This document shows positions 32,985-51,539 of a DNA stretch of 64,000 bases, one piece after another. The stretch comes from Plantactinospora sp. BC1 (lineage in GTDB: Bacteria; Actinomycetota; Actinomycetes; Mycobacteriales; Micromonosporaceae), in assembly GCF_003030345.1 (NCBI RefSeq), contig NZ_CP028158.1:434001-498000 (forward strand), given 5' to 3'. The notes below the pieces were generated by a model. The model searched no databases. It was not told where the DNA came from and was given only the letters and a program-made list of their open reading frames with translations. The first letter of the stretch is position 1, and every line of letters starts with the position of its first letter. Made by a program: the position numbers and the translations under genes.

Positions 32985-34244
32985 TCAGGTGGCGAGGTCC
33001 CTGGCCAGGTACCCCGGAAGTCGGAGCAGTGCGAGCGCGACCAGGCCGGCGATGACGGCGGCTCCCGGATAGAGGTACAGCGACAGCCCGGCGCTCGCCG
33101 CCACGGCACCGCCCAGCCACCCGCCGACTGCCGCACCGAGGAAGGCGACTCCCCGGGACACTCCGGAGATCCGCCCGATCGCTTCCGCTCCGGCGACCTG
33201 CTGCCGCATCGCCCGCCAGCCGACGTTGAACACCGTGGCGCCGCAGGTCTCCAGGGCGAGCGCGCCGATCACCCAGCTGATGTGGGCGGGCCTTGCCATC
33301 AGCAGGCAGGCGACCATCGAGAGCAGCAGACCGATCGCGAGCGTGCCGGGATAGCCCAGCCGGCGCTGGAGGCGGGGCAGCGCCGCCACGACCAGCGAGA
33401 AGATCGCCGTCCCCGTCATGATCAATCCGACCGTCGGCGCCGGCACGTCGAACCGGTCGCGGAGCTGGAAGATCGCCACGATGTGCAGCGCTCCGACACA
33501 GACGTTCGTCGTCGTGCTCAGAAGCATGCCGAGCCGGATCGAGCGGGTCCGGAACGCCAGCCCGATTCCCTCGCCGATCTCGCGGAGCAGGTTGCGGGTC
33601 GTCGCCGGGCGCCGGGGCGCCGCCCGGGGCGCCAGTGGCGGCAGCGAGAGGAGCAGCAGCCCGGCGACCAGGAAACTGGCCGCGTCGAAGACGATCGCGC
33701 CGACCCCCGGGCCCAGGGTGACCAGCAGGCCGGCGAGGCCGGGCCCGACCACCGCGCAGACGATGCGGCTGACCTCCAGCCGGGAGTTGGCGCTGACCAG
33801 CCGCTCCGCCGGGACGATCCGCGGAATGCACGACTCGTACCCGGGCAGCAGGGCGGCGAGCAGACACGCCAGGAGCAGCGCGCTCACGGCGAGCGTCACG
33901 GGCCCGGCAGCACCGAAGTGCAGCATGGCCGCCAACACCAGCAGTGCCGCCGTCGCCGCCGCGGAGAGCGTGGCGAGCAGCCGGCGCTGGTCGAAGCGGT
34001 CCGCGAGCGCGCCGCCGAGGATGCCCAGGGCGATGTGCGGCACCATCGTCATGCCGAATGCGATCGACATGGCGCCGGCGGAGCGGGTGGTGGCGTACAC
34101 GATCAGCGGCAGCGCGACGATGAACACCTCGTCGCCGAGCTGGCTGACCGTCTGCGCGGTCCAGAAGCGGATGAAGGTCCGGCCGGAAGGGAGCTTTCGG
34201 CCGGACTCTTCGTGAGTCACCACCGCATCGGTCGTCGGCGACAT
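32985..34244 (-). CDS. MFS transporter (EntS-like exporter) of the peptide-A operon
   Basis: 419 residues with 12 hydrophobic helices; the start region FIRFWTAQTVSQLGDEVFIVALPLIVYATTRSAGAMSIAFG and loop GGALADRFDQRR are typical of the EntS/MFS_3 group. The ATG at 34244 has GGGAGAGGG just upstream; the open frame upstream of it is a shadow. It is the third gene after the 26-residue peptide and the RRE-HDO enzyme, 23 bases behind the latter, so it is a likely exporter of the matured product. Confidence 0.87.
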   Translation of the reverse strand: MSPTTDAVVTHEESGRKLPSGRTFIRFWTAQTVSQLGDEVFIVALPLIVYATTRSAGAMSIAFGMTMVPHIALGILGGALADRFDQRRLLATLSAAATAALLVLAAMLHFGAAGPVTLAVSALLLACLLAALLPGYESCIPRIVPAERLVSANSRLEVSRIVCAVVGPGLAGLLVTLGPGVGAIVFDAASFLVAGLLLLSLPPLAPRAAPRRPATTRNLLREIGEGIGLAFRTRSIRLGMLLSTTTNVCVGALHIVAIFQLRDRFDVPAPTVGLIMTGTAIFSLVVAALPRLQRRLGYPGTLAIGLLLSMVACLLMARPAHISWVIGALALETCGATVFNVGWRAMRQQVAGAEAIGRISGVSRGVAFLGAAVGGWLGGAVAASAGLSLYLYPGAAVIAGLVALALLRLPGYLARDLAT

Positions 34245-34267
34245 GGTTCCCTCTCCCGGGCAGGGTG

Positions 34268-35305
34268 CTACAGGCTGAAGTAGTCGACCTTCACCCGGGG
34301 GATGTAGTTCGAGATGTCCGAGTAGTACTGCACGATCTGGTCGTGGAACTGGTCGTACGAGTGCTTCAGGTCGTGCAGGTTGTTGACCACGACGTGTGCC
34401 TGCCTGCCGGGGATGTCGCCCAGGATCCGCGTGGCCTGACCGATCAGGCTGGCGTGCTCCGCCTGCACGTCGATGCCCATGTGCCGGATGACCGGGTCGA
34501 CCGAGTCCTCGGGGAAGCCGGCCGCCACCGCCGCGCGGCGCATGCTCGCCGCCCCACCCTCGAAGTCGTCCGCCCGGGCCTCGAAGAGCGAGGTGCAGGC
34601 GATGTAGGAGAGGGTGTCCTGGCGGGCGATCTCGCACAGGTTGTTGACCAGCGACCAGGTGCCGATGATCGGGTGCGCGGACCTGACCTGCTCCTCGGGG
34701 ACGCCCATCTGGACGAGACTGCCCAGCAGCATGCCGGCGTGGTTCCACTCGTCCACGAAGTACTCCGACAGCAGCGGCACCAGGCGCTCGTCCCGGCAGT
34801 GGGCGATCGCGGTGCTGATGTGCTTCGGCGCCGACTTGACGTAGTGGTAGGTCTCCAGGATCAGGCCGAGGAAGACCTCCGGCCGCAGGTCGCCGTGCTC
34901 AAGGTCGGCGAAGAGGTGGTGGAACCCGATCTGCCGGGCCCACATCTCGCAGCTCGCGTCGATCTGTGCGGCGAACACGTCGCCGGGAATATATTCGGTC
35001 GGGGTCTCCCGGCGCAGCAGACCGGCCTCGTGCAACGTGCTCACGATCTGTCGTACGGACGCCTCGTCGACGCCCGACAGTTTGGCGATCTCCGGAATGG
35101 TGTGCCGCCCGTCGAGATACCGCTTGACGGTCAGCAGCGCCGTACGGGTCCCCTCTTCCTCGCTGATCTCGAAGTGTTCCCGTCCGACGATCATCAGCAT
35201 GGGCTGGTCGCTGGAGAGTTCACGGAATGTGCAGTGGCGCAGCCGAGGATAGTCCAACTCGGCCAGCGGGTCGATTATGTCGGGCTGGGGAATGACTGCG
35301 GTCAT
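34268..35305 (-). CDS. HDO-family non-heme iron oxidase with N-terminal PqqD/RRE-like domain
   Basis: 345 residues. Residues about 18-100 (FRELSSDQPMLMIVG, LTVKRYLDGRHTIPEIAKL, VRQIVSTLHEAGLLRR) have the PqqD-like winged-helix pattern used as a RiPP recognition element. Residues about 105-340 are a heme-oxygenase-like helical oxidase: ETYHYV at 151-156, DEWNH at 185-189, FEAR at 241-244 and VQAEH at 280-284 offer the Glu/His/Asp ligand set of HDO diiron enzymes. The ATG at 35305 is preferred (AAGGAGA upstream); the longer open frame overlaps the attenuator hairpin. It lies between the 26-residue peptide gene and an exporter. Inference: it binds the peptide and oxidises it. PqqC-like cofactor-free oxidases are the alternative. 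Confidence 0.8.
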   Translation of the reverse strand: MTAVIPQPDIIDPLAELDYPRLRHCTFRELSSDQPMLMIVGREHFEISEEEGTRTALLTVKRYLDGRHTIPEIAKLSGVDEASVRQIVSTLHEAGLLRRETPTEYIPGDVFAAQIDASCEMWARQIGFHHLFADLEHGDLRPEVFLGLILETYHYVKSAPKHISTAIAHCRDERLVPLLSEYFVDEWNHAGMLLGSLVQMGVPEEQVRSAHPIIGTWSLVNNLCEIARQDTLSYIACTSLFEARADDFEGGAASMRRAAVAAGFPEDSVDPVIRHMGIDVQAEHASLIGQATRILGDIPGRQAHVVVNNLHDLKHSYDQFHDQIVQYYSDISNYIPRVKVDYFSL

Positions 35306-35341
35306 GGCGGTCTCCTTCTTCGTCGGTTCAGCAGGGTCTGC

Positions 35342-35382
35342 ACGGGTCGGTGGGCCGCCGAAAAGCGAGCCCACCGACCCGT
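35342..35382 (-). terminator. Strong hairpin (attenuator) between peptide A gene and its HDO gene
   Basis: A perfect 14-bp stem (ACGGGTCGGTGGGC at 35342-35355 pairing with 35369-35382) has a 13-base loop. It starts 8 bases after the stop of the 26-codon gene and ends 37 bases before the HDO start. A partial terminator here would give more peptide transcript than enzyme transcript, as is common for RiPP precursors. Confidence 0.75.
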
Positions 35383-35389
35383 CCTGGCC

Positions 35390-35470
35390 TCAGCCGCAGC
35401 GGACGACCGCCGACAGCTTGGACTCCTGCTTGGGAGCCGCGACCTTCTTAAGGGAGATCTTCACCGACAT
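35390..35470 (-). CDS. Peptide A: 26-residue putative precursor peptide ending in VVRCG
   Basis: A 26-codon gene: start MSVKISLKKVAAPKQ, end ESKLSAVVRCG. It is basic (five Lys, one Arg, one Glu) with a single Cys at residue 25 and a C-terminal Gly. Support for translation is AAGGAGGTG ending 9 bases before the ATG, a SARP-type promoter upstream, a perfect hairpin directly after the stop, and an RRE-containing oxidase as the next gene. Inference: the N-terminal part is a leader recognised by the RRE and the C-terminal Cys-Gly region is the modified core. A structural or regulatory small protein is possible. I do not recognise the family. Confidence 0.72.
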   Translation of the reverse strand: MSVKISLKKVAAPKQESKLSAVVRCG

Positions 35471-35623
35471 GATGTGACACCTCCTTCTCCTGGACGAAGG
35501 GTCGGGGAGGTTCGGGTCCGATTCGGCTGATCCCCGATTGGCGCCGACTGAGGTGAGTCAAGCATGTCAATAGTGGGTAACGCAAGGGCAAATTTTTTGG
35601 ACGGAGTCGCGCATGATATTGCC

Positions 35624-35655
35624 GCATTATTAATCCACAATGTGTCCGGGATTTC
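35624..35655 (-). promoter_or_regulatory. SARP-type promoter of the peptide A operon
   Basis: On the minus strand: GAAATCC (35655-35649), N4, CACATTG (35644-35638), N8, TAATGC (35629-35624) as the -10. Spacing matches the other SARP-type elements here (11-bp period, 8 bp to the -10), and the pair is closest to the second and third heptamers of the 48139 element (GAAATCG, CACATCC). The predicted leader is about 145 bases. A TTGACA at 35570-35565 could mark a second start but has no good -10. The rest of the 375-base gap 35471-35845 is AT-rich and shows no other gene. Confidence 0.6.
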
Positions 35656-35825
35656 GTCCGGGATCACGCCACGCAAGCCGATCTCCACACACGTGGAATC
35701 CAGCATGAATTCGGCGCCGACCCCGCATACGAACAGGGGTCGGACACCGTGCCGGGCGGCCTCTCCGGCAGTTCGGGAATCAGCGGCGCACAACGCTTCC
35801 GCGCCTGCCGGATTTCTCCGTCCGG

Positions 35826-35842
35826 GGGCCGGGTGCCGGCCC
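35826..35842 (-). terminator. Hairpin after the amidohydrolase gene
   Basis: The 7-bp stem GGGCCGG/CCGGCCC with a 3-base loop begins 3 bases beyond the amidohydrolase stop. It would end the peptide B operon before the peptide A promoter. Confidence 0.45.
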
Positions 35843-35845
35843 TGG

Positions 35846-37150
35846 CTATGCCGTCGGCCGGCCCGGGGCGGAGAGCAGCGCGGCCACCCCGGGCAGCATC
35901 CGGGCGGCCGCGTCGCGGTACAACTCGGTCAGGACGTCGTCAGGCAGGTCGAGGCCGTACAGCGGGCCCGGGTCGACCGGGTCCAGCGGGGCGAACGCGT
36001 CGTCGTCGGTCTCCAGCACCCGGAACTGTTCCCGGTAGGTACCGGCGTCCTGGGCGCGGTCGCCGCCGAAGAGCACCCGACCGGCGAACTCCCGGAGGAA
36101 GCGCGCGGCGTGCCGCGGCTGCCGGGCCAGGACCCGATGCCGGGCGCCGAGCTCCACGTACAGGTTGGGATGCCGGCGCAGCGACGCGGCCAGCACGTCG
36201 AGCCGTTCGCCGTACCCGTCGAGATGGGCGGCGACGAGGCGCAGCCGGGGGAACCGGGTCAACACCCGGTCCCGCCGGGCGTGGACCTCCTGCTGGGACA
36301 GTCCGCCGGGGCGGCGACGCGACCACGGCGCCCGGTAGAGCCGCCGCAGCGCCTCGTTCCGGGCGTCCCACGGCCGGTACGTGGCGATGTCGTCGCCGCA
36401 GTGCACGATCACCGGTACACCCAGCTCGGCCGCCGCCGCCCAGAACGGGTCCAGCCGCAGGTCGTCGAGGTGGATCGGGTCCGCTGGCACCGGACCCACC
36501 CCGTGGTCGTCGACCCCGAAGCCCTTGTCGTGTGCCTCGTTCACCAGGACCGCACCGTGCCGCGTCACGTCCTCGTGGAGCCGTTCCGCGAGCAGGGCAC
36601 CGCCGTTCGTCCGCCGGACCAGGGACCAGTCGACGGTGGCCGCGGCGAGGAACCGGCCCGGCGCCGCGGCGACGAATCGGCGTGCGGTATCCGCGGTGGT
36701 GTCCCCGCGGTCGGCGAAGCCGCCGGTGATCGCGACGGCGACGTTGACCGAGTTCATCAGGCGGACCCGCTCGGCCGCGTCCGCGTCGCCGAGCCCGAGG
36801 TGCGCGTGCACGTCGACCACCGGGAACCGGGCCGCCACCGGCTCGGAGCCGGGCACCTCCAGCAGCGGTTCGGGCCGGTAGTCGAAGATCGACACATCCG
36901 GCGGCGGGTCGAAGACCATGAGCCAGGCCCGCCCGTCGCCGGGAATCTCGATCTCCACCGAGCCGTCCTGCCAGCTCAGATGGCGCTTGCGCACCAGATC
37001 GGTCAGGCGCGTGTGCCGGTAGCCGGGCGCCTCCAGGGTGGCTGTGGCGCCGGCCTCGCCGTACACCGAGACGAGTCGGCTGTGCTCGTCGTACGGCTGC
37101 GTCTCGACCCGGCATCCGGCCGCCCGGAACACCGGCTTCTCCGCGCTCAT
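35846..37150 (-). CDS. Amidohydrolase-2-family metal-dependent hydrolase
   Basis: 434 residues. An N-terminal all-beta extension of about 115 residues precedes the TIM barrel: VVDVHAHLG (HxH metal motif), VIVHCGDD, LVAAHLDGYG and LFGGDRAQD (metal Asp) give the full ligand series of the ACMSD/amidohydrolase-2 group. The family hydrolyses amides or decarboxylates acids. Its ATG overlaps the stop of the 2OG oxygenase, and it is the last gene of the five-gene peptide B operon. The N-terminal extension has no recognised function and could bind the substrate or peptide. Confidence 0.85.
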   Translation of the reverse strand: MSAEKPVFRAAGCRVETQPYDEHSRLVSVYGEAGATATLEAPGYRHTRLTDLVRKRHLSWQDGSVEIEIPGDGRAWLMVFDPPPDVSIFDYRPEPLLEVPGSEPVAARFPVVDVHAHLGLGDADAAERVRLMNSVNVAVAITGGFADRGDTTADTARRFVAAAPGRFLAAATVDWSLVRRTNGGALLAERLHEDVTRHGAVLVNEAHDKGFGVDDHGVGPVPADPIHLDDLRLDPFWAAAAELGVPVIVHCGDDIATYRPWDARNEALRRLYRAPWSRRRPGGLSQQEVHARRDRVLTRFPRLRLVAAHLDGYGERLDVLAASLRRHPNLYVELGARHRVLARQPRHAARFLREFAGRVLFGGDRAQDAGTYREQFRVLETDDDAFAPLDPVDPGPLYGLDLPDDVLTELYRDAAARMLPGVAALLSAPGRPTA

Positions 37151-38040
37151 ACCGGCACCACCGGCCCCTCGGACATCCGGACTCGCAGCAGGTGACGCTC
37201 CGGATCCGCGAAGTGCTCCCGGGCGTGCACGGTCCGGTGGTTGTCCACGAGGAGCACCTCGTCGGCGGCGAGTCGGATCCGGGTGCGGTGGCTGTCCGCG
37301 CCGAGCCGCCGGGCGAACGCGTCGACCGCCTCCGTCACCGGGTGCGTCGGGCCCAGCCCGGCCCGCCGCAACCCCTCGGCGATCAGGTCCTCGCGGTACC
37401 GCACCAGCGGCTGGCCGGGACCGCCGAGCACCCGGACCGGCAGCAGCGTCCGGCCGTTCCACAACGGAACGTCGGTGCCGCGCAGCAGCTCCACCGCCGC
37501 CCGGGCACCGGGTTCGGCCGCCATCGCCTCGACCACCCGGCGCGCGTCGACCAGGACACTCGCCCCGCCGTCGCTGGCCGGCCGGACGCACCACAGCCCG
37601 AACCAGCGCTCGGGAGCGGGCGCGAACGTGGCGTCGGTGTGCAGGCACGCCTCGCCGGACGAGATGGAGACGTTCGCGGCCTGCTGTGCCGCCGGCAGGT
37701 CCGGCCGGGGCCGGACGTCCCACACCAGCAGGTTGGTGGTCTCGCCCACCGGGCTGGGCCGGCCGAAGAGCGCGCTCACCGCGACGACCGCCGCGTCCCG
37801 CTGGACGTCGGGGAAGGCGGCGAGCCCGGGTACCCCGACGAGCGCGTAACCGTCGTCGGTGAGGCGCTGGCGTATCCGGAGTACCGCGGCCGGCAGGCCG
37901 GGCACCTGCGCCAGCGCCGCGCGAGCCAGCCGTTCCTGCACGTCGGGACGGTGCAGGCGCCTGCCGCCGACCTCCGGCCACCCGGCCACCGCGTCCACGA
38001 GCGACTGTAGCGACAGGGAGAGTCCCTGCGTGACCGTCAT
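37147..38040 (-). CDS. Fe(II)/2-oxoglutarate-dependent oxygenase (TauD-like)
   Basis: 297 residues with the complete facial triad: HTD at His134/Asp136 (CLHTDATF) and the distal His in LVDNHRTVHARE, followed by the 2OG-binding Arg in HLLRVRM. An N-terminal helical stretch of about 60 residues precedes the fold. The ATG at 38040 has GAGGAG upstream. It is coupled to the amidohydrolase by ATGA. TauD-type enzymes hydroxylate, desaturate or cleave C-X bonds of small molecules or bound amino acids; the substrate is unknown. Confidence 0.84.
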   Translation of the reverse strand: MTVTQGLSLSLQSLVDAVAGWPEVGGRRLHRPDVQERLARAALAQVPGLPAAVLRIRQRLTDDGYALVGVPGLAAFPDVQRDAAVVAVSALFGRPSPVGETTNLLVWDVRPRPDLPAAQQAANVSISSGEACLHTDATFAPAPERWFGLWCVRPASDGGASVLVDARRVVEAMAAEPGARAAVELLRGTDVPLWNGRTLLPVRVLGGPGQPLVRYREDLIAEGLRRAGLGPTHPVTEAVDAFARRLGADSHRTRIRLAADEVLLVDNHRTVHAREHFADPERHLLRVRMSEGPVVPV

Positions 38041-38127
38041 GATCTGCTCCTCGCTGCGGGTGCGGCGTTCGGTATGTCGGTCGGTGGGTGCCGCGCCGTG
38101 CCGCACCCGGGCCAGGCGGCGCGGCGG

Positions 38128-39051
38128 TCAGACCAGAAAGTCGCCCGGCCAGCCGCCGATCGGATCCCGGGCGAAGCCGACCAGGGTGCCGACCACCCCG
38201 TCGACGTCGCACGGCAGGCAGGTGTAGCCGTGCTGGGCCAGCGGCGGCTCGCCGAGGTCGCCACTGAGCCGGTACACCGCGGAGGGGTGCGGTGGCGCCG
38301 AGGCGTCGGCCGCCGACCCGTCCAGGGCGGGCCCGTGGAGGTCGCCGACGCGGACGCCGCCGAGCCGGGTGCAGCTCTCCGGGTGGTCGTGCCCCCGCAG
38401 CACCTCGGCGGTGCGGCGCAGCCGGGCCGGGTCGGTGCCGACCAGGACGACGCAGTCGCCGGTGGCGGCCAGCACCCGGGCGGTCGTGACGGCGCGCACC
38501 TTCGCCACCGTGGCTACCCGCCCGGTGAGTACCACCAGGTCGTCCGGGCCGCAGCCGGCCACCGCCGCGCTGGCCGGCTCGTCGCCGGCGGTCAGGCCGG
38601 GCAGCTCCAGCAGCTCGGCGACGGTCGCGGTGCAGCGCCGCAGCACCGTCCGGTCGACGTCGTGGCCGTGCACCCGGACCGGCCGGCCGCAGAGCGCGAA
38701 CGGCAGGGCCCGGCGGATGACGTGCACCGCGTGGCCGTGCCGGGGCAGCAGGGCGACCACCGTACCGTCGCCGGACCAGGCGGCGCCGGGGAGCGCTCCG
38801 GCGTCCGGCGCCGCCCCGGCGAGTGCGCGTCGGGCCGCCCAGCTCAGGGTCAGCGCCAGTTCCCGGGCGAGCACCGAGTCCCATGCCCCGGCCGGGATCC
38901 GTGGGTCGCGAAGCCCGGCCGCCGCCCCGGCGGGCACCCCGTCCCGCACCAGCGCGCGCAGCCGGCGGAGTGCGGCCGGGACCGGGCGGTGGCGTAGCGC
39001 CACCGCCCGGCCCACCTCGAAGCCCTCCGGCGACCGGTCAGGCGGTGACAT
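38128..39051 (-). CDS. Putative LuxC/aldehyde-dehydrogenase-fold reductase, short
   Basis: 307 residues, Ala/Val/Arg-rich, with no exact family recognised. The segments VVALLPRHGHAVHVIRRALPFALCG, DDLVVLTGRVATVAKVRAVT, GDCVVLVGTDPARL and HPESCTRLGGVRV follow the order of the cofactor and catalytic-Cys regions of LuxC-type acyl-CoA reductases, with Cys in PESCTR as a possible nucleophile. It is much shorter than LuxC or ALDH (450 residues or more), so it may be a reduced member or a misassignment. The start at 39051 overlaps the HDO gene by 14 bases; an ATG at 39087 is an alternative, and neither has a good ribosome site. Confidence 0.55.
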   Translation of the reverse strand: MSPPDRSPEGFEVGRAVALRHRPVPAALRRLRALVRDGVPAGAAAGLRDPRIPAGAWDSVLARELALTLSWAARRALAGAAPDAGALPGAAWSGDGTVVALLPRHGHAVHVIRRALPFALCGRPVRVHGHDVDRTVLRRCTATVAELLELPGLTAGDEPASAAVAGCGPDDLVVLTGRVATVAKVRAVTTARVLAATGDCVVLVGTDPARLRRTAEVLRGHDHPESCTRLGGVRVGDLHGPALDGSAADASAPPHPSAVYRLSGDLGEPPLAQHGYTCLPCDVDGVVGTLVGFARDPIGGWPGDFLV

Positions 39052-40909
39052 GCCAACCGACGCGCTGGAGTACGGCCGCGTCACCATGCCGGTAGTGGCA
39101 CCGTATCCCGTCGAGGAAGCTCCACGTCAGCTGCGGGACGAGCGCGGCGGCGGCGACCGTCTCGGCGTCGACGGTGTGCCGCTCGGCGAGCAGGCGCAGC
39201 AGCGTACGGGTGTCGTCGCCGTGCCCCAGCCGGGTGTCCTCGTCGTCGTGCCGGCGCATGGCCGACACCAGCCGCTCGCTCTCCGGCAGCTCCCGGGCCA
39301 TCGTCTGGTAGAACCGCTCGTGCCGCTCGTGCACGCCGTTGTCGCCGGCGGAGAGCGACAGTTGCAGGTACGCCAGCGCCAGCACGTACGCCTTCCAGTT
39401 GCGCTGACCCAGTTCCCGCAGCGTGCCGATGAACGCCACCGTCGTCGGCAGCGGTCGGGCCGAGGCCACCGGCAGCGTGGCGTACCGGCCGCCCTGGGCC
39501 GCGTCGATGCCCCGCCGGAACATCTTGCCGTGGTTGAACTCCTCGATGAGGTGCTGCACCAGCTCGTTGCGGATCAGCGGGTCGGGGCAGGTGGAGATCG
39601 CGGCGCCGGCGTGCTGCCAGATGCCGGAGACGTAGTGGTAGTTCTCCGCCATCCAGCCGTAGACCAGGGGGTACGTGGGCCGCTCGGTCAGCTCACGCCA
39701 CAGCTCGTGTCCATCGATGGCGCCGAGCCAGCTCTCCACCAGCTTCTCCAGGTCCAGCGCGGACCCGTTGCCGATCCAGCCGTTGCCGGCCCGACTGACG
39801 AAGTCGCGGGCCGCCACGGCCGGCGTGGTGCCGGATTCCGTGGTGCCGGGCTTCGTGGTCGTACCGCCCGGCCGGTCCGCCGCCTTCCCGCCGAAGGCGT
39901 ACGCCAGCGCCAGCGACTGCCGCACCCCTGCGGCGCTGCTCTGCGGCCCGTGGGCGAAGGACTGGTACACCTCGGCGGGCCAGACCGGTAGGCCGTCCAC
40001 CTCGCCGGCGTACACCCGGACGGTGGCGTCGGCGGGGAGGGTGAGGGCGGGCAGCGCGGCGACGACGTCGCCGGAGAGGCCGGTCTCGAACGTGTCCAGC
40101 CACCGCACGATCATCTCGGCGACCAGGGTGACGGAGTTGAGCCAGTCGGCGAGTTCCTCGACCGGGACGACCTTCGCCGCGTGCAGCGCCTTGCGCCAGT
40201 TCGACCCGTGGCCGAGACCGAGGTCCGTCTCCACGTGCTCGAAGATGGCGCGTACGGCCTCGTCGCTGAGCAGTCCCTCCGCGACGAGCATCTGGTGCCA
40301 GCCGGTGACCGCCGCGTTGTCCCCGGCGGTGTACTCCAGCAGGCCCGAGCAGATGCCGGCCGCCAACGGGCTGTATGCCGCCACCGTGCGCATCAGGTGG
40401 ACCCACTCGACGGTCACCGGCGACGGCCGGGCTTCCCGGAGCAGTTCGCGGGGCACGCCGAGCGCGGCGAGCCCGTTCTCGAAGTACGTGTCGTGGTTGG
40501 CCTCCTCGACCACGTGGTGCGCCTGGAGCCGCACGAGGTCGCTCGGGCGCAGCGCGTCGGTGACGCCGCTGGCCATCCGGAACGGCGCCGCGGCCAGGTA
40601 GTGCCGCGACTCGATCAGGTACGCGAAGAGCGCGTGCCGGGCGGCGCCGTCGCGGAAGCGCTGCCAGACGGGGTGCCCGTAGACATACTCCAGACACGCC
40701 TGGTATTGAGCTTCGACGATGGGCTCGACTTCGGCGGCAGGCAGGCAACGGTCGGCCGGACCGAGCCCGAGTGGCCGGGCGGCCCGGGCGAACACCTCGG
40801 TGGACGCCTGAGCCAGCGACAACTCGACCCGGTCGAGCAGCAGCACGCGAGACTCGCTCCGAGCGCGTCCGGCGGCGAGGAAGGGCACGGTTCGACGAAG
40901 GCGGCTCAT
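39038..40909 (-). CDS. Tandem HDO-domain non-heme iron oxidase
   Basis: 623 residues with two heme-oxygenase-like helical domains. Domain 1 (about 50-290) has YLIESRHYLAAAP and HHVVEEANHDTYFEN. Domain 2 (about 370-620) has YGWMAENYHYVSG and HLIEEFNHGKMFRRG. Both repeat the Glu-x-x-His and Glu-x-x-Asn-His patterns seen in the RRE-HDO at 34268. The linker near 350-370 is Thr/Gly-rich (GGTTTKPGTTESGTTP). The ATG at 40909 has GGAGG 6 bases upstream; a TTG four codons earlier falls in that ribosome site. It is the first enzyme gene after peptide B. HDOs are diiron oxygenases used for N-oxidation, desaturation and C-C cleavage. Confidence 0.82.
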   Translation of the reverse strand: MSRLRRTVPFLAAGRARSESRVLLLDRVELSLAQASTEVFARAARPLGLGPADRCLPAAEVEPIVEAQYQACLEYVYGHPVWQRFRDGAARHALFAYLIESRHYLAAAPFRMASGVTDALRPSDLVRLQAHHVVEEANHDTYFENGLAALGVPRELLREARPSPVTVEWVHLMRTVAAYSPLAAGICSGLLEYTAGDNAAVTGWHQMLVAEGLLSDEAVRAIFEHVETDLGLGHGSNWRKALHAAKVVPVEELADWLNSVTLVAEMIVRWLDTFETGLSGDVVAALPALTLPADATVRVYAGEVDGLPVWPAEVYQSFAHGPQSSAAGVRQSLALAYAFGGKAADRPGGTTTKPGTTESGTTPAVAARDFVSRAGNGWIGNGSALDLEKLVESWLGAIDGHELWRELTERPTYPLVYGWMAENYHYVSGIWQHAGAAISTCPDPLIRNELVQHLIEEFNHGKMFRRGIDAAQGGRYATLPVASARPLPTTVAFIGTLRELGQRNWKAYVLALAYLQLSLSAGDNGVHERHERFYQTMARELPESERLVSAMRRHDDEDTRLGHGDDTRTLLRLLAERHTVDAETVAAAALVPQLTWSFLDGIRCHYRHGDAAVLQRVGWHVTA

Positions 40910-40962
40910 GGCATCCTCCAACTAGTGCGTGTGGTCGGTGATGTGCTCATCGGGTGGGACGA

Positions 40963-40987
40963 CCGGGGCCGCGGACCACGGCCCCGG
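40963..40987 (-). terminator. Hairpin (attenuator) between peptide B gene and the tandem HDO gene
   Basis: A perfect 9-bp all-GC stem (CCGGGGCCG at 40963-40971 with 40979-40987) has a 7-base loop. It begins 14 bases after the stop of the 33-codon gene. This is the same position relative to peptide and oxidase as the hairpin at 35342. Confidence 0.65.
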
Positions 40988-41001
40988 CCGTCGGGCGGTG
41001 G

Positions 41002-41103
41002 TTACTCCACCACCGCGGCGCGCAGGGCGGCCGCCGCCTCCTCGGCGCGCTCGGCAACCTCGGCGAGCTCCTGGAGCTCCTCAACGGTGAGCTGCTGGTC
41101 CAT
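41002..41103 (-). CDS. Peptide B: 33-residue acidic, helical putative precursor peptide ending in AAVVE
   Basis: A 33-codon gene: start MDQQLTVEELQELAEVAE, then an Ala/Glu-rich run and end LRAAVVE. Eight Glu, one Asp and two Arg give an acidic amphipathic helix, like many RiPP leaders. AAGGAGGTG lies 8 bases before the ATG, nearly identical to the ribosome site of peptide A. A GC hairpin follows the stop, and then the tandem HDO gene. It has no Cys, Ser, Tyr or Trp, so a Cys/Ser-dependent RiPP chemistry would not apply; the C-terminal Val-Val-Glu, or an acceptor role, would have to be the modified part. The family is not recognised. Confidence 0.7.
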   Translation of the reverse strand: MDQQLTVEELQELAEVAERAEEAAAALRAAVVE

Positions 41104-41181
41104 GTCGTACACCTCCTTCGAATTCGATGGGGGTCTGGATGACTCAGTGAACGGGATTCTTCACCCCGGGCCACCGGTGTT

Positions 41182-46690: not shown

Positions 46691-46744
46691 CCGGTGGAGC
46701 GGTGGCTCGACCGGGGCGATCGCGCCCTCACGGGAGGTGTTGGC

Positions 46745-47575
46745 ATGGCACCGTCGGTTGTGGCGGACAAGCCGGCGACCGCCGGTGTCCTGGCCCCGAC
46801 GATCCGGCTGATGCCGAGGCTGCACGGCCGCACCGGGCCGGAACAGGTGGCGATCGCCGAGCCGCTCGTCGTCACCGACGTCGCCGGCTGGCTACCCGCG
46901 GTGGGTCTGGTCGCCGGCGCCGGCCTGGAGCGGCTGCTCTCCGGCAAGGTACGTACGCTGCGGGTCCCCCTGCACGTGTCGGCGGTGCTGACCTGGAAGG
47001 CGTACACCTACTGGCTGACCCTGCCCGCGGTGGCCGGTTACCTGTCGTCGCGACGGGTGCCGGTGCTCTCCGCCGGCAACATGCTGGTCCGGGTGTCGCG
47101 CCGGGAGCCGTGGGTCGTCCTCGGCATGCGCAACCCGCTGGTGACCGTGCTCGCCACGGACCCGAGCGCCGGTGCCGGGGCGACGAGGGTGGTACCCGAC
47201 GAGGCGGTGCTGCTGCGCACCATGCGGGAGGCGATCGTCGAACGGCACCTGCGCCCGCTGGCGCTGGCCGTCTGCGACCTCACCCGGATCGGCGAGCGGC
47301 CGCTCTGGGGTGGCCTGGCGAACGCGGTGGCCCGGCACGTGCAGCGCGCGCCCGGCCTTGCCGGTGAGGAGGCGCTCGCCACCGCCGGCACGCTGCTGCG
47401 CGCCCTCGGGGTGGAGGACCTGGTCCGGCTGGACCTGACCGGGACCGGCGCGCTGCGGGTACGCCGACGGACCTGCTGCATGGCGTTCACCGTGTCCGGG
47501 CTGGATCCGTGTGAGAGCTGCGCGTTGCGCTGGTCGCGGAGCGTCCAGCGGCCGCTCGACAGCCTGGGCGGATAG
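46745..47575 (+). CDS. FhuF-like iron-sulfur protein (ferric-siderophore reductase type)
   Basis: 276 residues ending with the cysteine pattern CC-x10-C-x2-C (TCCMAFTVSGLDPCESCALRW), the [2Fe-2S] motif of FhuF-type ferric-siderophore reductases. The body (TWKAYTYWLTLPAVAGYLSSRRVP) is compatible with the same family. GGGAGGTG precedes the ATG. In known systems the protein reduces ferric iron to release it from siderophores; in a cluster rich in non-heme iron oxygenases it could instead supply Fe(II) or electrons. That second role is inference. Confidence 0.8.
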   Translation: MAPSVVADKPATAGVLAPTIRLMPRLHGRTGPEQVAIAEPLVVTDVAGWLPAVGLVAGAGLERLLSGKVRTLRVPLHVSAVLTWKAYTYWLTLPAVAGYLSSRRVPVLSAGNMLVRVSRREPWVVLGMRNPLVTVLATDPSAGAGATRVVPDEAVLLRTMREAIVERHLRPLALAVCDLTRIGERPLWGGLANAVARHVQRAPGLAGEEALATAGTLLRALGVEDLVRLDLTGTGALRVRRRTCCMAFTVSGLDPCESCALRWSRSVQRPLDSLGG

Positions 47576-47607
47576 CCGCGGCCCGGACGGACAGCGAGGA
47601 GGTACTG

Positions 47608-48141
47608 ATGTCAACGGCTGATGTTCCGCTGGCCCAACCCCGGCACGCCCTGCCGGAGGTGGTCGCCGCGCTGCGCGCGCTGCCCCCGAACTCCCGCCAG
47701 ACCATCGTGGCGTACCTGTCCGACGGCGACTACCGGTTCGACGTCACGCTCGGCGTGGACAGCGCGGTGGTACGCGTCCACGCCACGCTCCGGGAGGACT
47801 GGGCCGCGGGTGGCACCTGGTGGACCAGCCGGGTCGTACGGGTGCGTGGCGCCTCGGCGGGCGACCTTGGGCACCGGGTCGGCGCTCAGGTCGCCGCCGA
47901 GGTGACGGCCCTGCGCGGGCGGTTCGCCCGGCTGCTGCGCGAGCACCGCGCCGAGGCGGCCGAGCCGCAGCGCGCCGAGGCGATCGAGTCGCACCGCGCC
48001 GGGGCGCCTGAGTCGCACCGCAACCAGCCGACCGGTCCGGGCCGGGTCGGCGCCGGCCGGACCGCCGCCGGGCAGGGCGGTGTGCCGCGGGCCGGGGAGC
48101 ACGCCCCGGACCGGTCGGGGCATGCCCTCACCTGGGGGTAA
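47608..48141 (+). CDS. Hypothetical protein with charged repetitive C-terminus
   Basis: 177 residues, family not recognised. The first about 110 residues are well structured (RQTIVAYLSDGDYRFDVTLGVDSAVVRVHATL), likely a small alpha/beta domain. The C-terminal third is low-complexity with imperfect repeats (AEAAEPQRAEAIESHR, AGAPESHR). GGAGGT precedes the ATG. It follows the FhuF-like gene by 32 bases and is probably co-transcribed with it. Its TAA stop is part of the first heptamer of the next SARP-type element. Confidence 0.7.
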   Translation: MSTADVPLAQPRHALPEVVAALRALPPNSRQTIVAYLSDGDYRFDVTLGVDSAVVRVHATLREDWAAGGTWWTSRVVRVRGASAGDLGHRVGAQVAAEVTALRGRFARLLREHRAEAAEPQRAEAIESHRAGAPESHRNQPTGPGRVGAGRTAAGQGGVPRAGEHAPDRSGHALTWG

Positions 48142-48181
48142 ATCAACCCGAAATCGGGATCACATCCGCCCGCCATACGTT
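48139..48181 (+). promoter_or_regulatory. Triple-repeat SARP-type promoter of the AsnO-like oxygenase gene
   Basis: TAAATCA (48139-48145), N4, GAAATCG (48150-48156), N4, CACATCC (48161-48167), N8, TACGTT -10 (48176-48181). Three heptamers in perfect 11-bp register. The ATG of the target gene is 65 bases downstream of the -10. Confidence 0.72.
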
Positions 48182-48246
48182 CGGCGCGCTGGACCGCTTC
48201 GACCAGGAGTGGTCTCCCTGTGCGGTACGTGAATCGGGAGGATCCG

Positions 48247-49239
48247 ATGCTACTGACGGCTGGCTCCGTGAGCGAATACATCGTGGAGGTCGAGGAGCGG
48301 GGCAGGATCTGGGACCTCGCCCAGGGAGTTGCGGTCGATCCGCTGCTGCACGAGGAACGGGTCCGGCGTTGCGCGGCCCAACTCCCGACCGGGCTGCGCA
48401 ACGCCCTGGCGGAGTTCGGCGCCGGCGCCTCGGCCTCGGGCTTCCTGCTCATCCGGGGCCTGGAGATCGGTGAGTTGCCGCCGACGCCCGACGGGCACCA
48501 GGCGACGCCGCTGACGGCGCACGGCACGACCGGACTGCTCGCGATGGTGGCCGACGCGCTCGGCCGGCTGGTCGGGTACGCGGACGAGAAGAACGGCGCG
48601 CTCGTGCACGAGGTGCACCCGGTGCGCAACGAGGAGCACCGGATCGAGAACAGTGGTGCGGTCGCCTTCGACTTCCACACCGAGAACGTGCACCACCCGC
48701 TGCGCCCCGACTTCCTCGGCCTGCTCTGCCTGCGCCAGGACCACGAGGGCGTGGCGGCGACCCGGGTCGCCTCGGTGCGCGAGGCGTACCGGTTGCTGAC
48801 CGAGGAGCAGATCGCGACGCTGCGGCGGTGCGAGTACACCAGTCTGTACCCGACGTCGTTCAGCCGGAACACGCCGGACCGGCCGCGCGCCGAGTCGGGG
48901 CCGCACCCGGTGCTCTTCGGCGGCGGGGACTCGTTGTTCATGCGGTACAACTCGCACAACACCCGGGCGACGAGCACCGCCGGCCGGCACGCCCTCGACG
49001 CCCTGGCCGTGGCGCTGGAGGAGGTCGCCCGCGACCTCGTCCTCGCGCCCGGTGAGATGGTGGTCCTCGACAACCACGTCGCCGCGCACGGTCGGTCGGC
49101 GTTCCGTCCCCGGTACGACGGTGCCGACCGGTGGCTGCGACGCTTCTACTCGCTGCGGGCGGTGCCGCGGTGGGCGGAGCAGATGAGCACCCATGCCCGG
49201 GTGCTGCCGTCGATGGACGCCATCGCCGGCGTGCTCTGA
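48247..49239 (+). CDS. Fe(II)/2OG oxygenase of the clavaminate synthase/AsnO/VioC type
   Basis: 330 residues with the HxE variant of the facial triad (FDFHTENVHH, His144/Glu146), distal His281 in DNHVAAHGRSAF and 2OG-binding Arg in RWLRRFYSL. HxE is characteristic of the clavaminate-synthase-like group, which includes beta-hydroxylases of free L-Asn (AsnO) and L-Arg (VioC). The ATG has GGGAGG 6 bases upstream; a GTG nine codons earlier is less likely. It has its own SARP-type promoter. The predicted role is hydroxylation or desaturation of a free polar amino acid. Confidence 0.88.
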   Translation: MLLTAGSVSEYIVEVEERGRIWDLAQGVAVDPLLHEERVRRCAAQLPTGLRNALAEFGAGASASGFLLIRGLEIGELPPTPDGHQATPLTAHGTTGLLAMVADALGRLVGYADEKNGALVHEVHPVRNEEHRIENSGAVAFDFHTENVHHPLRPDFLGLLCLRQDHEGVAATRVASVREAYRLLTEEQIATLRRCEYTSLYPTSFSRNTPDRPRAESGPHPVLFGGGDSLFMRYNSHNTRATSTAGRHALDALAVALEEVARDLVLAPGEMVVLDNHVAAHGRSAFRPRYDGADRWLRRFYSLRAVPRWAEQMSTHARVLPSMDAIAGVL

Positions 49240-49277
49240 GCGCGCAGCGCGACACGAGCCGAACCAGAGGTGGACGA

Positions 49278-50042
49278 ATGGACTTCGCGGACCTGGCCCT
49301 GCTGCTTCTGGTGGCGGCCGCGGCCGGCTGGGTGGACGCCGTCGTCGGGGGCGGCGGACTGCTCCAGATCCCCGCCCTGATGCTGGCGATGCCGAACCTG
49401 CCGGTGGCGGCGGCCCTCGGCACGAACAAGCTGGCCGCGATCACCGGTACGACCACGGCGGCGATCACCTTCGCGCGCCGTACCAAGCTCGACTGGCGCT
49501 TCCTGTCCGGGGCGGCGGGGCTGGCGGTCGTCTGCTCCGGACTCGGCGCGCTGTCGGCCTCCGAGGTGCCGGTCGGCTACTTCCGGCCGGTCGTGATGGT
49601 GATGCTGCTACTGGTGGCGGTCTTCGTGGTTACCCGACCCCAGTTCGGCACGGTGCAGCAGGACGCCGTGGTGACCCGGATGCGGCGGCTGGCCGCGCTG
49701 CTCCTGGCCGGGGTCGTCATCGGCTTCTACGACGGGGTGCTCGGGCCCGGCACCGGAACGTTCCTCATCTTCGCCTTCATCGGCCTGCTCCAGCAGGACT
49801 TCGTGCACGGCTCCGCGATGGCGAAGGTGGTCAACGCGGGGACGAACCTCGGTGCCCTGCTGGTCTTCGCGGCGCAGGGCCACGTGGTCTGGCTGGTGGG
49901 CCTGGCCATGGCGGTGCTGAACATCCTCGGCGCGCGGCTCGGCGCGGCCACCGCGCTCAAGCGCGGCTCCGGCTTCGTCCGGGTGGTTCTCCTGGTGGTG
50001 GTGACGGCCATGGTCGGCAAACTCGCGCTCGACCAGTGGTAG
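49278..50042 (+). CDS. TSUP (TauE/SafE)-family membrane protein
   Basis: 254 residues with about eight hydrophobic helices and both TSUP half-motifs: VDAVVGGGGLLQIPALM with GTNKLAAITGT, and GFYDGVLGPGTGTFLIFAFI. The family moves sulfur-containing or organic anions such as sulfite, sulfoacetate and taurine across the membrane. It follows the AsnO-like gene by 38 bases, so it is likely in the same SARP-driven transcript. The substrate is unknown; a sulfur link would fit the Cys of peptide A and the cystathionine-synthase-like enzyme, but that is inference. Confidence 0.86.
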   Translation: MDFADLALLLLVAAAAGWVDAVVGGGGLLQIPALMLAMPNLPVAAALGTNKLAAITGTTTAAITFARRTKLDWRFLSGAAGLAVVCSGLGALSASEVPVGYFRPVVMVMLLLVAVFVVTRPQFGTVQQDAVVTRMRRLAALLLAGVVIGFYDGVLGPGTGTFLIFAFIGLLQQDFVHGSAMAKVVNAGTNLGALLVFAAQGHVVWLVGLAMAVLNILGARLGAATALKRGSGFVRVVLLVVVTAMVGKLALDQW

Positions 50043-50062
50043 GGCCGGCTCGCCGCTGCCGG

Positions 50063-50105
50063 AACATCACCGCGAAATAGCCGCCAAATCCGTCTTCCCT
50101 ACCGT
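50063..50105 (+). promoter_or_regulatory. Triple-repeat SARP-type promoter of the ten-gene biosynthetic operon
   Basis: AACATCA (50063-50069), N4, GAAATAG (50074-50080), N4, CAAATCC (50085-50091), N8, TACCGT -10 (50100-50105). The -10 is identical to that of the antisense element at 42692. The GTG of the decarboxylase lies 60 bases downstream. Confidence 0.74.
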
Positions 50106-50165
50106 CCGTATCACTCCGGACAAACGTCGCCGGCCGTGAACCGGCGGGTCAGGAAGGGACCGGTT

Positions 50166-51473
50166 GTGAGTGATCCACGGCATGCCGTCAGCGACCCCAT
50201 CGAGCAGCTCAAGTTCCTCCGCGTCGAGGAGGTCCGCGACATCGCGGAGAGGTACGGAACGCCCGTCTTCGTCTACGACGAAGGCTCCATGGTCGCCGCG
50301 GCCCGGGGCCTGGCCGCACTCTCCAGTCCGTACGGCCTCACCGTCCGCTACTCGGTCAAGTCCTGCCCGACCCGGGCGGTGATCCGGATCTTCGACCGGC
50401 TCGGGCTCGACTTCGACACCAGCTCGGTCTGGGAGGCGCTCCGGGTGGTCGGTGCCGGCGTCCCGGCGGAGCGGATTCTGCTCACCGCCCAGGAGGCGGT
50501 CTTCGACGACCGCCTGCGGGGCCTGATCGAGGCCGGCCTCCGGTTCGACGCCGGCTCGCTGCGCCAGCTCGACCAGTACGGCCAGGCGTTCCCCGGCGGC
50601 GCCGTCTCGGTCCGGCTGAACCCGGGTTTCGGCTCCGGGCTGGTCAACCGGCTGACCAGCGGCGGCCCCAACTCCAGCTTCGGCATCTGGCACGAGGATC
50701 TGGGCGAGGTCAAGCGGCTGGTCGAGAGGCACAGCCTGCGCCTGGTGCGGCTGCACTCCCACATCGGGTCCGGGCACCACTGGGACGTGCTGATCAACGC
50801 CGCCCGCGCGCTGCTCGCCGCCGCCCGGCAGTTCCCGGACGTCGAGGTGATCGACCTCGGCGGGGGATACCGGGTCAAGAGCCTGCTCGGCGACCCGGAG
50901 TACGACCACCGGGAGTGGGCCGAGGTGCTCGGCGCCGACCTGCGGGCGTTCGCCGAGGAGACCGGCCGGCGGCTGCGGGTCGAGCTGGAGCCGGGTACGG
51001 CGATCATGGCCAACTCCGGCTCGCTGGTGACCCGCGTCGTCGACGTGGTCTCCACCGGCGCCGACGGGCACCGCTTCGTGAAGACCGATGGCGGCCTGAC
51101 CGAGATCGTCCGCCCGTCCTACTACGGCGCGGTGCACCCGCTCGTCTCGGTGCCGGCCTCCGGCCCACTCCGCGACGACCGCGAGCGGTACTGCGTCGTC
51201 GGCCACTGCTGCATCGCCGGTGACCTGCTCACGCCCGCTCCCGGCTCGGTCGAGGAACTGGCGCCGGTGCCGCTGGCGCGGACCCAGCCCGGCGACCTGC
51301 TGGTCGTCGAGCGGGCCGGCGGCTACGCCTCCAGCATGTCGATGAAGAACTTCAACTCGTTCCCCGAGGCGCCCGAGGTGCTGCGGCGCACCGACGGCTC
51401 GGTCCACCTGATCCGGGAGCGCCAGACCCTGGACCAGATCATCGCGAACGAACGTGTCCCCGCCGGCCTCTGA
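50166..51473 (+). CDS. PLP-dependent decarboxylase, fold type III (LysA/ornithine-decarboxylase group)
   Basis: 435 residues. The alanine-racemase-like barrel has the PLP Lys in RYSVKSCP (Lys65), the SSVWEA and NPGF segments, HSHIGSG for phosphate binding and DLGGGYRVK; the C-terminal beta domain supplies the catalytic Cys in GHCCIAGD and the SMSMKNFNSFP loop. The GTG at 50166 has AGGAAGGG upstream. Relatives decarboxylate diaminopimelate, ornithine, lysine, carboxynorspermidine or carrier-bound glutamate (BtrK). YSVKSCP in place of YAVKAN sets it apart from housekeeping LysA. It is the first gene of the operon, so it may make an amine building block or a decarboxylated C-terminus. Confidence 0.86.
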   Translation: MSDPRHAVSDPIEQLKFLRVEEVRDIAERYGTPVFVYDEGSMVAAARGLAALSSPYGLTVRYSVKSCPTRAVIRIFDRLGLDFDTSSVWEALRVVGAGVPAERILLTAQEAVFDDRLRGLIEAGLRFDAGSLRQLDQYGQAFPGGAVSVRLNPGFGSGLVNRLTSGGPNSSFGIWHEDLGEVKRLVERHSLRLVRLHSHIGSGHHWDVLINAARALLAAARQFPDVEVIDLGGGYRVKSLLGDPEYDHREWAEVLGADLRAFAEETGRRLRVELEPGTAIMANSGSLVTRVVDVVSTGADGHRFVKTDGGLTEIVRPSYYGAVHPLVSVPASGPLRDDRERYCVVGHCCIAGDLLTPAPGSVEELAPVPLARTQPGDLLVVERAGGYASSMSMKNFNSFPEAPEVLRRTDGSVHLIRERQTLDQIIANERVPAGL

Positions 51474-51539
51474 GTATCCCGATGGCGGCGTGCGGCCACG
51501 ATCTGGCGCTCCCGCCGACACACGCGGCAAGGAGATGCA

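Follow-up and report, generated by a model that had tools for sequence, protein, structure and literature searches.

A 64,000-nucleotide stretch of the genome of Plantactinospora sp. BC1 (contig NZ_CP028158.1, positions 434,001 to 498,000; below, the whole of this stretch is called the window) contains on its minus strand a gene of 26 codons, peptide A, followed by the gene for RRE-HDO. This protein is a putative heme-oxygenase-like dimetal oxidase (HDO) with an N-terminal domain that resembles the recognition element (RRE) of enzymes acting on ribosomally synthesised and post-translationally modified peptides (RiPPs). From comparative sequence analysis and structure modelling, we consider it likely that peptide A is the precursor of a RiPP-like pathway and that the adjacent RRE-HDO is its single conserved maturase. 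The tiny peptide with its Cys-Gly end is very probably what the oxidase modifies. These genes, together with an exporter gene, form cassette A:

35390..35470, minus strand: peptide A, precursor-like gene; 26 amino acids, C-terminus Arg-Cys-Gly; relatives upstream of 23 of 24 intact homologous enzymes
35478..35486, minus strand: ribosome-binding site of peptide A, AAGGAGGTG
35342..35382, minus strand: RNA hairpin between the peptide A stop and the RRE-HDO gene
34268..35305, minus strand: RRE-HDO, 345 residues; winged beta3-alpha3 N-terminal domain (about residues 20-109) and heme-oxygenase-like oxidase domain; C-terminal motif YIPRxxVDYF
32985..34244, minus strand: exporter of the major facilitator superfamily (MFS), third gene of cassette A; Pfam MFS_1

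Relatives of RRE-HDO

Scans of genome contigs and viral contigs with protein-derived patterns yielded no relative of RRE-HDO. A tblastn search against plasmids gave a 37% relative on Rhizobium etli p42f. The gene upstream of it is annotated as coding for a hypothetical protein of 67 residues, which ends in ASVVLMCG, versus LSAVVRCG in peptide A (MSVKISLKKVAAPKQESKLSAVVRCG), and the C-termini of the two enzymes are nearly identical (DISNYIPRxKVDYF). A back-translated DNA pattern for YIPRxxVDYF was scanned over one genome per species, resulting in 36 stretches, and over viral contigs, resulting in one. The enzyme was encoded in 25 of these 37 stretches and not in the other 12; the viral-contig stretch was not a relative. 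The relatives were thus gathered by the C-terminal motif of the enzyme itself, and since the peptide played no part in their selection, its link to the enzyme is not circular.

Wider regions were fetched for 24 intact relatives, consisting of 23 loci from the scan and the R. etli plasmid copy. Gene fragments in Paraburkholderia (L073) and Streptomyces zagrosensis (L074) and a remnant in Rhizobium T1473 (L007) were left out. Judged by the record titles, the 24 relatives span Actinomycetota, Bacillota, Pseudomonadota and Bacteroidota. In a phylogenetic tree, a branch with 99/98 support set the 25 motif-bearing enzymes apart from three outgroup sequences; the program flagged long branches, which makes the deeper order of this tree unsure. 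No DNA-level match to a Serratia enzyme gene was found in E. coli genomes.

The Cys-Gly peptide family

The first-pass annotation of the window had suggested asking whether short open reading frames (ORFs) adjoin such enzymes in other genomes. They do: a small peptide gene lies directly upstream of the enzyme gene in 23 of the 24 relatives, in all four phyla, as expected for a RiPP, in which a gene-encoded precursor is conserved beside its maturase. The C-terminus is conserved as well. It is CG in 21 peptides, CA in one (Tumebacillus, L062) and SG in one (Amycolatopsis, L059); examples are MSITIKPVEKPAMSKVAGAVLCG (Streptomyces), MALKVKVKKLDKKPAFATAAVNTTMCG (Alteribacillus) and MKLKKVSKKSTKKLGGATCG (Pantoea). 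Five relatives have peptides of 64-67 residues, such forms occurring in Rhizobium, Hyphomonadaceae, Methylobacter and Bacteroidota; the other precursors are 20-28 amino acids long.

A strict rule, asking for an ORF of 15-70 codons that has a ribosome site, ends in CG and lies close to the enzyme start on the same strand, was satisfied in 19 of the 24 relatives. Elsewhere in these loci only 5 ORFs obeyed it over 849,380 strand-bases, corresponding to an expected 0.0023 per 390-nt window. The remaining four peptides were recognised by eye (L063 and L064, which are without a ribosome site, and L059, ending in SG) or by a wider rule (L062, ending in CA). None of the six peptides tried against NCBIfam matched any of its models.

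In the peptide alignment, Cys and Gly alone are kept at 90% or more. The leader upstream of them is basic and alternating, of the type (L/V)K(I/V)x(V/I)K(K/R)(V/L), with KISLKKV as its version in peptide A. Among the peptides of the gamma group, silent codon changes outnumber changing ones (11 versus 3 of 20 codons between L066 and L070, and 5 versus 0 between L068 and L070), which indicates that the peptide of this group is under protein-level constraint.

Hairpins after the peptide genes

According to the first-pass annotation, a perfect GC hairpin stands 8-14 bases after the stop of both peptide A and a second mini-gene of the window, peptide B, which is treated below. Both hairpins are real, but their distances are 7 and 9 bases, respectively, and one of them is not perfect. 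The stem of hairpin A comprises 14 Watson-Crick pairs, with a second stem of 4 bp inside it, and none of 200 shuffles was equally stable (z -3.68). The 16-bp stem of hairpin B includes two G-U pairs, and 5 of 200 shuffles were as stable (z -2.60). No T-run comes after hairpin A or hairpin B. The gap could be tested in 22 relatives with a peptide, and 16 of these have a stem of at least 10 consecutive pairs just past the peptide stop. The six that fall below this length are R. etli, Methylobacter, Wocania and three Serratia; even so, some of these fold more stably than the simple shuffles with which the relatives were compared.

A small ORF with a strong ribosome site and a hairpin before an enzyme gene is the classic layout of an attenuator, and the two could form a regulatory leader for the oxidase (by attenuation or translation coupling), the peptide having no role in a product. 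We regard this as most improbable. It is the peptide sequence, its C-terminus above all, that is kept over four phyla, whereas the stems of the relatives have no obvious sequence in common and few are followed by T-rich stretches. The five relatives of 64-67 amino acids and the predominance of silent changes in the gamma group also argue against a mere leader. We infer that the hairpin is a device favouring peptide over enzyme output, which would let far more peptide than enzyme be produced.

Candidate ligand residues and their loss together with the peptide

In the enzyme alignment, E151 and D279 are invariant, and H154, E186, H189, H275 and H284 are conserved at 90% or more; by their pattern, these seven are candidate metal ligands. 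All seven are kept in 23 enzymes, including that of the window. One of the two exceptions is the Tumebacillus enzyme, accompanied by the CA peptide, which has Gln at H154. The other belongs to Saccharothrix NRRL B-16314 (L065), the sole relative without a peptide, and has Q, R, R and R at E186, H189, H275 and H284. Judged from its sequence, L065 has lost the peptide and the apparent active site together, and it is a natural control. No CG-type peptide adjoins the enzyme in the outgroup HDO loci L005, L006, L009, L010 and L072 (Rhodococcus, Robbsia and others).

Two further observations were made on these enzymes. In the last long helix of RRE-HDO, residues 311-318 make up the motif HDxKHxxD, which is invariant; it comes in addition to the usual HDO ligand pattern and could be a further metal or substrate site. 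In Serratia inhibens (L072, 7975-9985, minus strand), two adjacent HDO genes without a CG peptide resemble the pairs in Rhodococcus (L005) and Robbsia (L006).

Structure models

Peptide A and RRE-HDO are in frame and the sole stop between them is the peptide's own, so that the stretch reads as one chain of 400 residues when TGA is taken as Trp. AlphaFold2 was run on this read-through chain with 23 alignment rows, 4 of them containing the peptide, and gave a mean predicted local distance difference test score (pLDDT) of 84.2. Peptide A residues 4-10 were modelled as a beta strand, with a mean pLDDT of 92 over residues 1-10. The N-terminal domain of the enzyme has the topology beta-beta-beta-alpha-alpha-alpha (strands 81-83, 91-95 and 98-106; helices 109-117, 125-132 and 136-148, in the numbering of the chain), that is, the three-stranded sheet followed by three helices of an RRE; the rest of the enzyme is helical. 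Since a beta strand has to pair with another, and since no strand of three or more residues was modelled outside the leader and the N-terminal domain, the leader would be added to the sheet of that domain. The structure prediction suggested in the first-pass annotation returned a leader strand, which is what an RRE-bound leader would be expected to form.

Searching the RRE-HDO model against the PDB with Foldseek gave 45 matches at E ≤ 0.001, of the heme-oxygenase fold expected for an HDO (among them 3dde, CADD, BesC, UndA, FlcD, PqqC and TenA). Both RRE-HDO and the tandem HDO that follows peptide B exceed the Pfam TENA_THI-4 cut-off, which bears out the earlier proposal that a heme-oxygenase-like oxidase stands after each mini-gene.

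The peptide might also serve the HDO as a small structural subunit or as an activator instead of being its substrate. Two-gene units without an exporter exist (R. etli, Bacteroidota), and the modelled interaction is with the N-terminal domain, as such a role would allow. A subunit or activator would, however, not need a near-invariant free Cys-Gly end and a variable middle, and the topology of the N-terminal domain is that of the known leader-binding fold. We think such a role very unlikely.

Neighbouring genes of the relatives

An MFS-type gene lies directly 3' of the enzyme gene in 14 of the 24 relatives. It is over the Pfam MFS cut-off in 11 (L049, L050, L051, L053, L054, L055, L056, L057, L059, L068 and L069) and just below it in L070 and L071; that of L066 is far below, yet 10 membrane segments are predicted in it. 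In L067 the place of the MFS gene is taken by genes for a TauE/SafE protein (exporter) and an aminotransferase. No exporter gene adjoins the enzyme gene in L004, L052, L058, L062, L063 and L064, which include all five long-precursor loci. Because the exporter varies among the loci, the irreducible conserved unit, as far as gene content indicates, is the peptide plus RRE-HDO, often with an exporter.

In the actinobacterial loci L060, L061 and L065, the enzyme gene is directly followed by a gene for a SufS-family cysteine desulfurase (over the NCBIfam cut-off); in L060 an MFS gene is also present two genes later. Non-ribosomal peptide synthetase (NRPS) genes adjoin L060 and L061. An ornithine-cyclodeaminase-family gene follows the MFS gene in 5 of the 24 relatives (L053, L054, L056, L057 and L059). 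A Cys-centred reaction would be consistent with the sulfur-handling genes next to the enzyme in four loci, which do not prove it. Pfam scans of 20 window proteins and 41 neighbour proteins of the relatives gave no match to YcaO, TfuA, a lantibiotic dehydratase (LanB-like ligase) or a multinuclear non-heme iron-dependent oxidative enzyme (MNIO); the putative maturase has the HDO fold.

Proposed pathway

In the pathway that we favour, the N-terminal domain of RRE-HDO would take up the basic, alternating leader KISLKKV as an extra beta strand, and this docking would present the C-terminal Cys-Gly to the dimetal site of the HDO. The HDO would then oxidise the Cys-Gly end with O2, a 4-electron oxidation centred on Cys being the favoured reaction. 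The modified C-terminal part would be released and, in the window, exported by the downstream MFS protein. Enzymes encoded nearby in some relatives (an ornithine-cyclodeaminase-like reductase, a SufS-type cysteine desulfurase or NRPSs) may take part as well.

Several points weigh against this pathway, the whole case for which is built from sequence and modelling. Cys and Gly are not absolute, as one homolog ends in SG and one in CA. Outside the gamma group, changing codons often exceed silent ones (4 silent and 12 changing between L053 and L059, 1 and 13 between L049 and the window); with only 20-30 codons and a free middle, this comparison is weak evidence either way. In the AlphaFold2 model the Cys-Gly end of peptide A is disordered, as is the linker, and the partner of the leader strand is an assignment by exclusion. 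The chain of the distant L067 has a leader strand of 3 residues only (residues 4-6), with a pLDDT of 73 for residues 1-10. As to the PqqD/RRE-like domain named in the first-pass annotation, the beta3-alpha3 topology was recovered in the model, but sequence alone does not decide between an RRE and a helix-turn-helix (HTH) domain: the N-terminal domain matched a PqqD profile (14 sequences) with a probability of 83 over 63 columns and an IclR-type HTH (12 sequences) with a probability of 94 over 36 columns, helices only, and Pfam assigns it HTH models, not PqqD. Finally, 9 of the 24 loci are without an exporter directly next door, no dedicated protease gene was seen in these loci, and SufS also adjoins the ligand-dead, peptide-less enzyme of L065.

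A finer form of the favoured pathway, which we hold to be a serious possibility though with some reserve, is that the peptide is a disposable carrier. From the peptide's C-terminal residues the HDO would make a small, amino-acid-like molecule, to be cleaved off and then either exported or passed to other enzymes, as in the biosynthesis of 3-thiaglutamate or the ammosamides, with Cys-Gly being encoded and not added by a tRNA-dependent ligase. Conservation confined to the last residues is consistent with this, as is the mostly present exporter beside the precursors of 20-28 amino acids (MFS-type in 14 loci, TauE/SafE in 1). Genes for possible further steps are found as well: the ornithine-cyclodeaminase-family gene in five loci, the SufS-type desulfurase in three, and NRPS genes beside L060 and L061 and in the window. 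That no protease gene was seen speaks against a carrier, as do the five long-precursor loci (L004, L052, L058, L063 and L064); having no exporter next door, these suggest a product that is kept in the cell.

Far more tentatively, and with considerable doubt on our part, an RRE-fused dimetal HDO unrelated to MNIOs might have converged on MNIO-like chemistry. A gene-encoded C-terminal Cys-Gly would undergo a 4-electron reaction with O2 to yield a sulfur heterocycle or a thioamide-type metal-binding group, on precursors from 20 residues and in four phyla; some lineages would export the product and others would keep a 65-residue modified protein inside the cell.

If the favoured pathway is correct, peptide A represents a widespread class of ribosomal peptides defined by one enzyme and a peptide from 20 residues. 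Peptides of this size fall below what ordinary gene callers pick up, and this would help to account for the class having been missed. HDOs, known mainly for their action on small molecules, would be linked directly to peptide substrates that are genetically encoded, and a two-gene system would be quick to test by mass spectrometry.

The second mini-gene and the rest of the window

Peptide B and the genes between it and cassette A are the following:

41002..41103, minus strand: peptide B; 33 amino acids, acidic, C-terminus Val-Val-Glu; coding by composition and ribosome site
41110..41118, minus strand: ribosome-binding site of peptide B, AAGGAGGTG
40958..40992, minus strand: RNA hairpin after peptide B
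39038..40909, minus strand: tandem HDO; two domains, each with E-x-x-H, E-x-x-H and D..H motifs
38128..39087, minus strand: orphan protein, no family match
37147..38040, minus strand: TauD-family 2-oxoglutarate (2OG) oxygenase, outside the conserved unit
35846..37150, minus strand: Amidohydro_2 protein, outside the conserved unit

On the minus strand the order is thus peptide B, tandem HDO, orphan, TauD-type 2OG oxygenase, amidohydrolase, a gap of about 375 bases, peptide A, RRE-HDO and MFS. A plus-strand cluster of NRPS and polyketide synthase genes with an ATP-grasp protein converges on these genes. Also on the plus strand, at 46694-52562 of the window, a FhuF-like protein, a second TauD oxygenase, a TauE/SafE exporter, a pyridoxal phosphate-dependent decarboxylase and a fatty-acid desaturase are encoded in a row, perhaps as a further small biosynthetic cluster.

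Much of what the first-pass annotation had seen here was confirmed. The two mini-genes, of 26 and 33 codons (peptide B is MDQQLTVEELQELAEVAERAEEAAAALRAAVVE), are real in coordinates and codon composition and share strand and layout; their third-position GC (0.92 in peptide A, 0.94 in peptide B) resembles that of the larger window genes. The 64 kb contain two copies of the shared ribosome site AAGGAGGTG, each on the minus strand and directly before the start of one mini-gene. Pfam supported the 2OG oxygenase (TauD-type), the amidohydrolase (Amidohydro_2) and the MFS exporter. The protein at 38128-39087, described as LuxC/ALDH-like, had no sequence match in Pfam, NCBIfam or the PDB, and that description is not confirmed.

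Both cassettes might be one system, with peptide B as a second substrate, for the tandem HDO. The common strand, ribosome site and hairpin layout are in line with this, as are the ligand-like motifs retained in both tandem-HDO domains and a similar layout with another type of peptide in L108 and L109. We nevertheless judge such a system unlikely. No ortholog of the tandem HDO was found in 394 genomes of the class, 354 of the family and 7 of the genus (its own genome included in each), in 13 selected genomes or in plasmids; five of the 13 selected genomes gave only partial matches, to single HDO domains. Cassette A occurs in other loci without a tandem HDO, the matches there being to single HDOs only, and with no ortholog of the latter protein, the 'paired HDO' system of the first-pass annotation is not supported. 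Nor did the 2OG oxygenase, the amidohydrolase or the 38128-39087 protein of the window have a tblastn match around the relatives (37 loci; 27 wider regions). On sequence and model evidence, the cassette A half of the earlier interpretation is strongly supported and its twin-cassette half is not.

The loci L108 and L109 come from two genomes of the same family. In each, a peptide ending in VPKxCxYDPLTRL (L109, 10814-10954; L108, 10662-10811; both minus strand) stands upstream of an HDO with an HTH/RRE-like N-terminal domain. In L109 a long perfect hairpin comes after the peptide gene, and then the genes for a PhyH oxygenase and the HDO; ORFs for a methyltransferase, an aminotransferase-like and a P450-like protein are also present. 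Judged by such gene arrangements, pathways of a tiny peptide plus an HDO may be a wider theme.

Comparison with known systems

Neither RRE-HDO nor a precursor family with C-terminal Cys-Gly was found in the open literature searched, which is not proof of absence. The sole HDO tied to RiPP biosynthesis in that literature was VarO of the thiovarsolin pathway (PMC6511847), proposed there to put a double bond into an arginine side chain. A review of HDOs cites VarO for ribosomal peptide modification (PMC13108848), and a VarO-similar gene is noted in Sinorhizobium (PMC8120280). The main text of two RRE surveys (PMC12710340 and PMC7470986), searched by term, names no oxygenase fusion, and PMC13419390 mentions HDOs in its reference list only. 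Thiovarsolin biosynthesis resembles the present system in having a heme-oxygenase-like protein in a RiPP pathway, also with an MFS transporter, but as described it needs YcaO and TfuA and a repeating precursor (PMC6511847). Here, in contrast, the HDO is the sole conserved enzyme, has a fused RRE-like domain and is accompanied by a precursor ending in Cys-Gly.

PqqC acts on a late free intermediate without a metal. Natural fusions of PqqC and PqqD (a CD fusion is named in the title of PDB 5vrc) likewise combine the heme-oxygenase fold and a PqqD-type fold in one protein. RRE-HDO differs in having its RRE-like domain N-terminal to the oxidase domain and in retaining the pattern of metal ligands.

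The fold of MNIOs is a TIM barrel, and the bufferin motif EGKCG also holds Cys-Gly. The RiPPs made by MNIOs (DUF692), such as bufferins and thiooxazole peptides (PMC12452194, PMC12668002), are similar to the pathway proposed here in the iron-dependent O2 chemistry on Cys of short precursors. The enzyme described here has the HDO fold instead, and its Cys-Gly is the very C-terminus of the peptide.

The substrates of the stand-alone HDOs FlcD, BesC, CADD and UndA are small molecules. These enzymes share the HDO fold with RRE-HDO according to Foldseek (for FlcD, see also PMC11363339), but as far as the published accounts go they work without a peptide precursor or an RRE. Pearlins (3-thiaglutamate and the ammosamides; PMC9303977, PMC9016710, PMC11117183) resemble the proposed pathway in using a small peptide scaffold whose C-terminal residue, Cys in the case of 3-thiaglutamate, is chemically rebuilt. 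That residue is described as being added by a tRNA-dependent ligase, whereas the Cys-Gly studied here is gene-encoded. Measured against these systems, precursors with a Cys-Gly terminus and an HDO that carries its own RRE-like domain probably define an apparently new RiPP-like class.

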